The notes under the pieces were generated by a model that saw only the letters and a list, made by a program, of their open reading frames with translations, made no database searches and was not told the origin of the DNA. This document shows positions 1-3,442 of a DNA stretch of 54,050 nt, piece by piece. How positions within the stretch are numbered: position 1 is the first letter of the stretch; every line of letters begins with the position of its first letter. The DNA lies in NCBI GenBank assembly GCA_035764005.1, contig DASTZZ010000068.1, positions 1-54,050 of the forward strand. The letters are read 5' to 3'. Made by a program: the position numbers and the translations under genes. This stretch comes from Terriglobales bacterium (GTDB lineage: Bacteria; Acidobacteriota; Terriglobia; Terriglobales; Acidobacteriaceae).

Positions 1-1689
1 AGCATCGGCGATACCGTCGCTGAAAAATACGAACAGATCGCCTGATTGCGCGTTGACCGTGACCTCGTCGTAGCTGGCTTCTTCAAACAGACCGAGCGGC
101 AAGCCGGCGCTTTCGATGACCTCAAGGTTCCCGTTTCGGCAAACGATCGGGCGGGGAATACCGGAGTTTGCCACAGTCATGGCGCGCGATTCGTCGTCCC
201 ACACCGCATACACGATAGTCACGTATTGTGCTTCGATGTGACGCTCGTTCAGCGAAAGATTGATGGCCGAAAGCATCTGGGCAGGAGAAGGCTCGAGCGA
301 TGCCGTGGAACGCAGCAGGCCGCTGACAAGCGCGGCATACAGCGCGGCCGGAGCGCCTTTGCCGCTTACATCCCCCAGAGCGAGTGCCACCCGCCCACCG
401 CTGTACTCGAGGAAATCGAACAAATCCCCGCCGATCAGCAGCGCCGGTTCGAACTTAGCGGCGAGATCGGCATTGCGAAGCTGCGGACACACAGGAGGCA
501 GCAGGCGTATCTGGAGTTCGCGGGCCATGGAGAGATCGCGCTCCAGCCGTTGTTCTTCGCGTGCCAGGCGCTCATATAGACGAGCATTCTCAATCGCAAT
601 CGCGATCTGTCCGGCGAGCGTCGTCATCGTGCGCACGTGATCTTCGGTGTAGGAATTGCGCCGGGTGTTTTCGAGATCGAGCACGCCGATAGCCCGCTCC
701 TTATAGATCAGCGGCACGCAGAGCTCCGAACGAGTCTCCGGATTGAGTTCTATATACCGAGGATCTTTGGTGACGTCGGGCGCGAGCACTGCGACTTTCT
801 CTCTGACTGCGTATCCGACGAGTCCGCGTCCAACCGGAATGTCATGTTTGAGATGAATGTTCTCCTGATATCGCAACGAGAAGCGATGGACGAGCATGGC
901 CTGTTCTTCGTCCACCAGGAGGATCGAAAACATCTGGTACTCGATCACCCGCGTGAGCAGCTCGCCGATGCGTTTGAAGAGCTGATCGACATTCAGAATC
1001 GAAGTAAGCTCGCGGCTGATTTCGTTCAGGACCATGAGCGTTTGGGCCTGTCGCGCTACGCGCGTGTACAACCGAGCGTTTTCGATTGCGGCTGCGATGC
1101 GCGATGCGACGAGGCTCAGAATCCGGCTGTGCTCTTCAGTGAAATAGGCTTCTTTGCTCGCCTGAATATCGATCACGCCGATCACGCGCTTCTTGGCAAT
1201 CAGCGGTACCGCCAGTTCGGAACGGACCAGAGGGTGAGCATTGATGTACTTGGGTTCTTTGCGAACGTCCGAGACCAGAACGGCACGTCGCTGCTCGACC
1301 GCCATTCCCGTAATCCCTTGTCCGACTTTGATCTTCAGCCGCTCGACTTCTGGTGTATGCCCGATTTGAAACCGCATGCGCAGCTCTTGCGTGCGCTCGT
1401 TCAGCAGAAGAATGGCAAAGATCTCGTAATCAATGACCTGCCGCACCAGTTCAGCCACACGCGCGAGAAGCTTGTCAGTTTCCAGCGTGCTGTTAAGCGT
1501 ATCCGCGACATCGATGAGAAAAGTTTCGAGCTTGAGGGAAACCTCGGCCGCGCGTCCGCCTTCCTGATTGGCCTTCAAAACCTCAGATAGGGGAGCGGTC
1601 TGCCCGGCGGGATTGCCTTTCCCTCCGTTGCTGACCGGCTCTGCTGCAGGGCTGTCCTGCGCCGGAATTTTTGTGCGCGTAGCGGCCAT
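1..1689 (-). CDS. GAF-GAF-PP2C (SpoIIE/RsbU-type) serine phosphatase, C-terminus cut by window edge
   Basis: I read this frame from the complement: an ATG at 1689 opens 563 codons that run without a stop to base 1. A disordered Pro/Ala-rich start (about residues 1-45) precedes two similar GAF domains (about 50-200 and 205-365), each with the SELAVPL or SELCVPL core typical of the fold. A SpoIIE-type phosphatase domain follows from about 375, with metal-binding aspartates in GGDLFDF, LGDVSGKGAPAAL and FFSDGIADA. Known family members dephosphorylate anti-sigma-factor antagonists after the GAF domains sense a small ligand. No partner kinase or antagonist is visible nearby. The missing end should be short, since FFSDGIADA lies near the end of this domain. 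Family assignment is firm; the signal it senses is unknown. Confidence 0.93.
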   Translation of the reverse strand, partial: MAATRTKIPAQDSPAAEPVSNGGKGNPAGQTAPLSEVLKANQEGGRAAEVSLKLETFLIDVADTLNSTLETDKLLARVAELVRQVIDYEIFAILLLNERTQELRMRFQIGHTPEVERLKIKVGQGITGMAVEQRRAVLVSDVRKEPKYINAHPLVRSELAVPLIAKKRVIGVIDIQASKEAYFTEEHSRILSLVASRIAAAIENARLYTRVARQAQTLMVLNEISRELTSILNVDQLFKRIGELLTRVIEYQMFSILLVDEEQAMLVHRFSLRYQENIHLKHDIPVGRGLVGYAVREKVAVLAPDVTKDPRYIELNPETRSELCVPLIYKERAIGVLDLENTRRNSYTEDHVRTMTTLAGQIAIAIENARLYERLAREEQRLERDLSMARELQIRLLPPVCPQLRNADLAAKFEPALLIGGDLFDFLEYSGGRVALALGDVSGKGAPAALYAALVSGLLRSTASLEPSPAQMLSAINLSLNERHIEAQYVTIVYAVWDDESRAMTVANSGIPRPIVCRNGNLEVIESAGLPLGLFEEASYDEVTVNAQSGDLFVFFSDGIADA

Positions 1690-1834: not shown

Positions 1835-2551
1835 TTATCGCTTTCGCGCGGCTTCGAGGATCGCGGTTGCGGAATTTGTGGTGATGCGATTGGCGCCGGC
1901 TTCCATCATCGAATGCACATCTTCGAGTGTGTCGATCCCGTCAGAAGCCACCACGTCCAGCTTGTCACCGAGCACGCCGCGCATTAGCGAAACGTCCGAC
2001 GGCGCGGAAGAGATGCCGGTGAAGCCCGTTCCCGAACTGACGCCATTGCTTCCCGCTGTCACTGCGAGTTGGCATGCCAGGATCTTTTCTTCGAGAGATA
2101 AGAGTGCAACTTCAATACTGACGTGCAATGAAGCGTTGTTGTCGTGAGCAAGGTCCGCCAACGCTCGCATTTCTGTTTCTACGCGAACTCGATCGCCCGA
2201 CTTGAGCGCGCTCACGTTCATGATCAATTCAAGACTGCGCGCGCCTAATCGAATTGCATCGAGGGCTTCGTACCGCTTGGTCGTTGTTGTGCTAGTCCCG
2301 TAAGGGAAGCCGACGAGTGTGCCAATCTTCACTCGGGTGCCTGAGAGCAGGGAAGCACACAAGCCAATGTGAGCAGGGCTGACCACGACGCAATGGCAGC
2401 CGCGGTTAGTAGCTTCGGCGCACAATTGTTCGATGGCGGCGTAAGTGGCGTCTCCTCTTAGGAGACGGGAGTTGATGCGAGAAGCAAGGAGCTTCCAGTC
2501 TTGGGCTGGAGACCCCACCACAGATGGAGCTTCGGAAATCTCGATCGCCAT
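1835..2551 (-). CDS. DeoC-fold protein lacking the catalytic residues (putative pseudoenzyme)
   Basis: The 238-residue protein follows deoxyribose-phosphate aldolase along its length: TLVGFPYG, NVSALKSGD, SGTGFTG and MMEAGANRITT all align with known DeoC blocks. The chemistry is missing. The Schiff-base lysine of VKTSTGF is Ser172 (VSSGTGF), the second lysine of VKASGGI is Val201 (VVASDGI), the relay aspartate of EIDMVIN is Glu108, and the early IDHTLL motif reads INSRLL (Asp to Asn27). True aldolase activity is therefore unlikely. It may bind a sugar phosphate, act as a regulator, or have a new reaction. It lies 21 bp downstream of hpt, so the two probably form a nucleoside-salvage operon. 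The frame is intact, which argues against simple decay. Confidence 0.85.
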   Translation of the reverse strand: MAIEISEAPSVVGSPAQDWKLLASRINSRLLRGDATYAAIEQLCAEATNRGCHCVVVSPAHIGLCASLLSGTRVKIGTLVGFPYGTSTTTTKRYEALDAIRLGARSLELIMNVSALKSGDRVRVETEMRALADLAHDNNASLHVSIEVALLSLEEKILACQLAVTAGSNGVSSGTGFTGISSAPSDVSLMRGVLGDKLDVVASDGIDTLEDVHSMMEAGANRITTNSATAILEAARKR

Positions 2552-2572: not shown

Positions 2573-3127
2573 TCACTCGTCTCCTAATGCACTCGGGGGA
2601 ATCACGCAGATGTCGGGCAGGTTGCGGTAACGCTCGGCATAGTCCAGTCCGTACCCAACGACGAACTTGTTGGGAATGGTGAAGCCGATGTAGTCGCCTT
2701 CGATCTTCTGAATGCGGCGCGCGGGCTTATCGAGTAGAGCGGCGATCTTCAGGGACTTTGGTTGGTGCGCGCTGAGCACCCTGCGCAAGTACGTAAGCGT
2801 GAGGCCGGTATCGAGGATGTCCTCAACCAAAATGATGTTCTGCCCTTCGACAGAATGATCGACATCCTTCAACAGCTTGACTTCGCCGCTTTGCTGATGT
2901 CCTTTGCCGTAGCTCGAGGTGGAGAGAAAGTCGAAAGTGGCGTCGAGGCTGATGCAGCGCGCCAGATCGGCGAGGAAAATGGTCGCTCCCTTCAGCACTC
3001 CGACCAGCACAACTTTTTGTCCGGCAAAATCACGCGAGATCTCCTCACCCATTTCGGCCACACGTCGTGCGATCTGATCGCGGGTGTAGAGAACGTCGAG
3101 CCCGGCATGAACGATGGGGGCGGCCAT
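2573..3127 (-). CDS. hpt: Hypoxanthine phosphoribosyltransferase
   Basis: The enzyme makes IMP or GMP from hypoxanthine or guanine and PRPP in purine salvage. The PRPP-binding motif VLVEDILDTGLTL is clear, as are VLVGVLKGATIFLADL near the N-terminus and FVVGYGLDYAERYRNLP near the C-terminus. The frame stays open upstream to 3229, but those extra 34 residues (rich in FVHRVH) come from the TGGAC repeat array. The ATG at 3127 gives 184 residues, the usual family length, so I place the start there. The DeoC-like gene follows after 21 bp. Confidence 0.93.
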   Translation of the reverse strand: MAAPIVHAGLDVLYTRDQIARRVAEMGEEISRDFAGQKVVLVGVLKGATIFLADLARCISLDATFDFLSTSSYGKGHQQSGEVKLLKDVDHSVEGQNIILVEDILDTGLTLTYLRRVLSAHQPKSLKIAALLDKPARRIQKIEGDYIGFTIPNKFVVGYGLDYAERYRNLPDICVIPPSALGDE

Positions 3128-3187
3128 AGGCGTATTGTCGCCTCGCTTCGCTGGAACGGCAACTGCAAAGCTAGCGCGTGGGACCCG

Positions 3188-3390
3188 GTGGACGCGATGG
3201 ACGAACTGGACAGAATGGACGAAATGCACGGCTTTGCTGCTAGCGGGCTTTGCTTATCGATCTGGAGATAGATCGCTCAACAAAAATGTGATCTTCTAGC
3301 GAAAAGCACCCCTGTTACAACCCGCTTGCACGAGGTCCAGTCTTCCGTCCACAAAGTCCACTGAGTCCACAAGTTCCACCTCGTCCACTC
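3188..3390. repeat. Inverted TGGAC array (9-nt period) around a 110-bp spacer
   Basis: The left arm (3188-3225) holds four TGGAC words spaced 9 nt. The right arm (about 3350-3390) holds GTCCAC about five times, also mostly 9 nt apart, with TTCCAC as a decayed unit. The arms are complementary and face each other. The region 3128-3442 between divergent hpt and the hydrolase gene has no other gene; both promoters must lie in or beside this element. Confidence 0.8.
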
Positions 3391-3442
3391 ATCCCGGCAT
3401 TGACCTTTGCTGCGCGCCCGTGTTCAATACCTGCTTTCAGCC

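Follow-up and report, generated by a model that had tools for sequence, protein, structure and literature searches.

The deoC1 gene and its surroundings

The window, by which we mean the whole stretch of DNA analysed (54,050 nucleotides of contig DASTZZ010000068.1 from a Terriglobales bacterium, assembly GCA_035764005.1), carries on its minus strand the gene studied here, deoC1 (1835..2551), which encodes a DeoC-fold protein without its catalytic residues in an intact frame, of 238 codons as the earlier note had read it, that runs from an ATG start to a TAA stop. Twenty-one bases upstream lies hpt (2573..3127, minus strand; alternative in-frame GTG start at 3229), whose product is a hypoxanthine phosphoribosyltransferase (HPT; TIGR01203, 209 bits for a cut-off of 150). 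Downstream, on the same strand and truncated by the window edge, is the gene of a GAF-GAF-SpoIIE (PP2C-type) phosphatase (1..1689; Pfam GAF_2, GAF and SpoIIE). It is a conserved neighbour: its product is 59% identical to the phosphatase beside deoC1 in genome G016, and such a gene stands at most 1.5 kb from deoC1 in 51 of 74 loci. The order hpt, then deoC1 is likewise found in three genomes of the window's genus (G054, G108 and G120), and hpt adjoins deoC1 in each of the 14 loci where the latter is dead, a term that we apply whenever residue 172 or 201 (window numbering) is not lysine; in one of these loci just 20 hpt residues are visible, at the locus end. The link with hpt drawn in the earlier note stands as this conserved gene order. 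Two further features were seen by eye: in the gap that separates deoC1 from the phosphatase gene, at 1741-1822, an inverted repeat of the form caccacggagacacggag ... ctccgtggctccgtggtga, which may act as a terminator or be a short mobile repeat, and, upstream of hpt (3180-3400), short tandem-like ggacg/tggac and gtccac runs flanking position 3290.

The deoC1 product is a DeoC by homology, scoring 166.1 bits with NCBIfam TIGR00126 (cut-off 117.3), 29.7 bits with Pfam PF01791 (cut-off 23.8) and 156 bits in a phmmer comparison with 8qps. Its AlphaFold2 model (mean pLDDT 92.6, residues 1-14 below 50) has DERA enzymes as its closest solved structures, the best being 4xbs (Z 37.8, rmsd 1.0 over 217 residues); the model was built on an alignment of 49 relatives in which live DeoC proteins drive the result, and its confidence is no proof of folding.

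The replacements read in the earlier note are confirmed, codon by codon, on the sequence (minus strand throughout). Codon 27 (2471..2473) is Asn and codon 108 (2228..2230) is Glu, each being Asp in 99 of 100 DeoC1 rows from genomes without deoC2, the gene of a second DeoC described below; codon 172 (2036..2038), the place of the Schiff-base lysine, is Ser, and codon 201 (1949..1951) is Val, both being Lys in 100 of these 100 rows. The E. coli counterparts, which we take from alignment plus recall, are Asp102 for codon 108, Lys167 for codon 172 and Lys201 for codon 201. The set D-D-K-K at 27/108/172/201 is present in 126 of 139 other aligned homologues, and three of the remainder are partial. 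In E. coli, according to the available part of PMC8403123, Lys167 forms the Schiff base while Asp102 and Lys201 share in proton transfer, and a review states, in the part available, that function is lost if Lys167 is exchanged for anything (PMC6244999). An active aldolase has a Schiff-base lysine, a second lysine and a relay aspartate where the window protein offers Ser172, Val201 and Glu108, and judged by these residues the latter would be inactive as an aldolase.

Among the 42 sites that are near-invariant (at least 97% conserved among 110 live hpt-type DeoC1 proteins), 17 are altered in the window protein: D27N, F52C, D108E, M109L, V110I, G114S, K143H, D169N, K172S, T173S, G181S, A182S, K201V, G204D, R207D, G224T and S226N. 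The changes G204D, R207D, G224T and S226N fall in the phosphate site, of which T175, G176 and G205 are retained, and the view that the phosphate-binding motifs remain was mistaken. The accessible text of PMC8403123 gives phosphate-binding roles to Gly204/Gly205 and the Ser238/Ser239 region of the E. coli enzyme; this arrangement is lacking in the window protein despite the retention of G205. Since K172, K201, G205, R207, G224 and S226 are identical in 100 of 100 DeoC1 rows without deoC2 (G016, G087 and G417 set apart), chance is no reasonable account of the loss of such a set of residues. In the model, the 17 lost residues lie in strands (8), loops (8) and a helix (1), whereas the 25 that are kept lie in loops (13), helices (10) and strands (2), the comparison of helix with the rest giving p 0.016. 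An assembly error is rejected as the cause, since the alterations affect four distinct catalytic codons plus 13 more conserved sites, all within an open frame. A shift of the Schiff-base lysine to a new position in the window protein is set aside provisionally.

Orthologues, DeoC2 and recurrent lysine loss

A deoC1 gene is found in four of the six genomes of the window's genus, and the window copy is the sole dead one. The orthologues of G054, G108 and G120, all beside hpt and all D-D-K-K, are 56-57% identical to it, whereas HPT is 92-93% identical among the same genomes, so that the window DeoC1 has changed far faster. The earlier note had counted homologues with lysines at these positions against its reading. 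Such homologues do occur, in the window's own genus, and because these three orthologues keep all four catalytic residues they mark the catalytic loss, on the sequences at hand, as recent and lineage-specific; they do not make the window protein an aldolase. The other two genomes, G121 and G122, have no deoC1 match: in G121 hpt stops 12 bases from the contig end, so that deoC1 cannot be judged there, and in G122 an hpt of this type was not found. No closer relative of the window's dead form came to light in the genus, in a search of 398 genomes of the family or among the 57 loci of a scan of named genomes.

The window genome does contain a second, normal DeoC, for which the earlier note had advised looking. 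This DeoC2 (335 residues, G000:C111:117404-118408) has its catalytic set intact (D74, D172, K235 and K271; loci L002/L115) and is followed by the gene of a 796-residue protein that holds two aldehyde dehydrogenase domains in one chain (G000:C111, L164 6091-8481). It is of a type distant from DeoC1, to which it is 30-33% identical along a part of the length. All six genomes of the window's genus have DeoC2, and the 26 DeoC2 loci examined (20 in genus g9 and six in the window's genus) all combine D-D-K-K with an aldehyde dehydrogenase in the flank. An additional partial DeoC2 is found in G008 (G008:C80:398-634), an N-terminal part 70% identical to residues 20-98. In a draw of 120 genomes of the family, DeoC1 and DeoC2 tend towards mutual exclusion: strong DeoC1 matches are present in 6 of the 38 genomes with DeoC2 (called at E below 1e-100) versus 60 of the 82 without (p 3e-9, kinship uncorrected), the cut-off for a strong DeoC1, E below 1e-35, having been chosen after viewing the list, with 11 weaker matches dropped. 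Here and below, absence of DeoC2 means that it was not found, some genomes being incomplete.

In genus g9, DeoC1 has lost a lysine in 12 of 19 genomes with DeoC2 and in 0 of 56 without (G417, whose DeoC2 is a contig-end fragment, was set apart, and G412, with deoC1 over two contigs, and the fragment of G427 were not counted). The discovery set, 30 loci from a search of 80 genomes, comprised 25 with both lysines and 5 that had lost K172, and DeoC2 was present in 5/5 of the latter and 0/25 of the former. Among loci held out until later, K172 or K201 is lost in 7 of 14 with DeoC2 and 0 of 31 without; the prediction fixed beforehand was that all 14 would be degenerate, and with lysine loss in only seven of them it was the one-sided pattern that persisted. 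Of the seven that keep their lysines, three carry K32E, G204D or G205D (G373, G405 and G203) and four keep all twelve listed sites. None of 73 g9 frames has an internal stop, and in three genomes of the genus (G404, G426 and G334) no deoC1 of this type was matched.

Counted across every row of the DeoC1 tree, dead proteins are found in 13 of 25 genomes with DeoC2 versus 2 of 102 without (G088 and G425 being scored live). Both lysines are kept in 12 of the 25, including all three same-genus orthologues, and DeoC2 is for this reason permissive, not decisive, for lysine loss. A change at any of six sites (D27, D108, K172, K201, G204 and G205) occurs in 15/25 rows with deoC2 versus 3/100 without. 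All 12 lysine-less g9 proteins are also changed at K32 or G205; in the part of the E. coli description available (PMC8403123) these residues are near the phosphate, the equation of K32 with E. coli Asn21 being our own. K32 varies in 15 of 100 rows without deoC2 too, and is no clean marker outside g9. Among degenerate hpt-linked proteins, G008 (genus g9) has D, G, V and L at the four catalytic positions, and G016 and G087 (genus g17) have E, T, A and K; in the latter two, which come from genomes 81% and 73% complete, DeoC2 was not found. K172 is replaced by V in G008, by Q in G341, by S in G307 and G338, by R in G274, G379 and G423, and by N or S in G280, G312, G382 and G358, while G411 has K201C, and these differing letters support separate events of loss. 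A protein tree built quickly from 128 DeoC1 sequences, with the key columns omitted and many weak branches (52/125 open), requires at least 7 changes of the dead state and at least 12 of DeoC2. On this tree an independent-pairs test had only four supported pairs (median p 1), and no test of the association between loss and DeoC2 that corrects for phylogeny had power.

Other departures from the ordinary DeoC were met along the way. The hpt-linked deoC1 of G059:C218 (L204) contains stops and that of G050:C20 (L205) is in two pieces, so that plain decay also occurs at this locus. A distant degenerate DeoC with an open frame (Glu27, Glu108, Cys172 and Lys201) lies at 501-1133 of a Limisphaerales locus (L054, PLZQ01000190.1) from which an hpt match is absent. 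Two genomes with DeoC2, G028 and G077, carry a separate DeoC-like group (L130 and L132; Gln at 27, N-A-S-S after the lysine, 27-30% identical), possibly another changed paralogue.

Selection on DeoC1 after the loss

In relatives, the lysine-less DeoC1 is under purifying selection much like that on the live protein. Ten pairs taken within dead clades give omega 0.023-0.085 at dS 0.30-2.02, each with omega 1 rejected (2dlnL 101-194). For live proteins 25 of 60 candidate pairs were compared; their median omega is lower, 0.030, but goes with a median dS of 2.6 and saturation in most of them, and omega is 0.064-0.160 in the four whose dS is under 0.61. For the dead pair G016-G087, omega is 0.155 for DeoC1 versus 0.115 for hpt. 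A branch-class model on 41 sequences yields omega 0.075 for live branches, 0.099 for those with deoC2 and lysines, 0.110 for the stems of dead clades and 0.073 after the loss, and omega 1 for this last class is rejected (2dlnL 948); branch lengths were scaled by class and not fitted singly, 22 of the 53 deoC2-less sequences were used, picked near the dead ones, and the tree groups G341 with G307 and G338, so that a few branches classed as post-loss may predate the loss. Of 99 sites invariant in the 53 deoC2-less g9 sequences, 60 show no change in any of the 12 dead sequences. Those most often lost are K172 (11), K32 (8), M69 (6) and G205, D108 and T29 (5 each), in window numbering except for M69, which follows that alignment; the tallies count sequences and not events, and omit six partial-gene loci. 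M69 is also lost in 4 of the 7 g9 sequences that have deoC2 and keep the lysines.

On the window branch itself, codon models give DeoC1 an omega of 0.06-0.07, no higher than elsewhere, with a saturated dS of 3.8-5.1, and omega 1 is rejected, the log-likelihood being lower by 48 with four taxa and by 9 with five. This omega averages the time before and after the loss, and the post-loss period is not separable where no sister shares the dead form. A coding frame on the other strand is an unlikely cause of so low a value. When neutral evolution was simulated, indels not being counted, the frame stayed free of stops in 2.6% of runs at 0.25 substitutions per site and in 0.25% at 0.47. The rejection of omega 1 and the simulation favour selection on the window protein over a good part of the branch at the least, without showing when that selection ended, if ever. 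Its continuation to the present is likely. Fourfold sites differ from those of the three orthologues by 69-77% in deoC1, 53-58% in hpt and 55-63% in DeoC2; for the high value of deoC1 we have no explanation beyond weaker synonymous constraint or the limits of the models.

A pseudoenzyme model and its comparison with known systems

The model that we propose, and hold to be probable, combines these observations in a transfer of the aldolase reaction to DeoC2 and the persistence of DeoC1 as a pseudoenzyme with a non-aldolase, probably scaffold, role. DeoC2, encoded beside the aldehyde dehydrogenase gene, would cover the conversion of deoxyribose-5-phosphate to glyceraldehyde-3-phosphate and acetaldehyde, and together the two proteins would handle both the substrate and the resulting acetaldehyde. 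With DeoC2 able to do the reaction, DeoC1 would be relieved of it; freed from catalysis, or better off without it, DeoC1 would then shed its Schiff-base lysine and its contacts with the substrate phosphate. The folded protein would be retained because of its other role, which we would place on the outer surface, as a scaffold or regulator, perhaps with HPT or the GAF-SpoIIE phosphatase. The same story would apply in the window species. A selected non-aldolase role, as suggested in the earlier note, is thereby the best reading, given the second, intact DeoC and the selection on lysine-less DeoC1 in relatives. More tentatively, as a serious possibility that falls somewhat short of our main proposal, the hpt-linked DeoC of this bacterial family may be a two-job protein, an aldolase with a hidden non-catalytic role: where DeoC2 and the aldehyde dehydrogenase cover the former, as would have happened several times, the lysine and the phosphate contacts may go while the rest remains under full selection. 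These contacts might even have been selected away, to stop the release of acetaldehyde outside the DeoC2 route.

Could relaxed selection suffice, with DeoC1 made redundant by DeoC2 and the window gene a young relic whose stop or frameshift is yet to come? The window branch is the longest of the DeoC1 tree (0.96), its dN is 0.26-0.32, where hpt has 0.02-0.04 and DeoC2 0.04-0.07, and the loss of 17 of 42 near-invariant sites, the broken hpt-linked copies of G059 and G050 and the frequent outright absence of DeoC1 beside DeoC2 in the family draw all fit such a course. Yet omega 1 is rejected on this branch, a neutral frame seldom stays free of stops in the simulation, the losses fall on strands and loops and spare the conserved helix residues, and relatives show strong purifying selection on DeoC1 that lacks the lysine; we regard the relic as unlikely, though the most credible of the rivals.

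The two other readings keep a use for the barrel interior. TIM barrels readily switch reaction, and a confidently predicted fold together with a gene conserved in relatives would suit one that has adopted a reaction in which the Schiff base is unneeded; but the replacements of the lysine (V, R, N, S, Q) and the changes at the phosphate site vary by lineage, which leaves no shared new active site, and of the conserved pocket residues the window protein retains hardly any, so that a changed enzyme appears improbable. A ligand-binding sensor of sugar phosphates tied to purine salvage, the role that the earlier note had favoured, would suit the conserved gene order with hpt and the pocket of G274, G307, G338, G341, G379 and G423, mostly retained besides K172 and K32. 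Against it stand the altered phosphate site of the window protein and the change of K32 or G205 that all 12 dead sequences of g9 display, and we give it very little credence.

If the pseudoenzyme model holds, the locus presents a natural and repeated catalytic knock-out, with the protein kept, in an old textbook enzyme. Such a knock-out suggests a second function, to be sought where deoC1 adjoins hpt in a genome that has DeoC2. The locus also carries a warning for annotation: the window protein (166 bits) and those of G008 (212) and G016 (120) score above 117.3, the equivalog cut-off of TIGR00126, and would receive the name aldolase. Searches of the open-licence literature for inactive, moonlighting or acidobacterial DeoC brought up no description of one that has lost catalysis, which is weak evidence of absence.

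Compared with class I DeoC/DERA (TIGR00126, PF01791) of the short bacterial type, such as the enzymes of Geobacillus (8qps) and Bacillus halodurans (BH1352, 6d33), the window DeoC1 is alike in full-length homology and fold (Z 36.9-37.8), but the Schiff-base lysine and the second lysine are missing from it, as are the two aspartates and several residues of the phosphate site. The DeoC of bacterial microcompartments that use sugar phosphates, as presented in the available part of PMC4207490, is accompanied by an aldehyde dehydrogenase, as at the DeoC2 locus. This likeness concerns only the partner gene of DeoC2, and no shell-protein gene was seen, by name, among the large frames near DeoC2; a microcompartment may be kept as a lead from the literature. 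The nearest parallel to our model lies in duplicated and retained pseudoenzymes such as, reportedly, the pectinase pseudoenzymes of beetles (PMC6549527), which share with DeoC1 the homology to an active enzyme, the loss of catalytic residues and a purifying selection that follows it, here in the relatives. Unlike in those cases, the copy displaced here is the resident gene, the other being a DeoC of a distant type, and among lineages with DeoC2 the loss has occurred in several.
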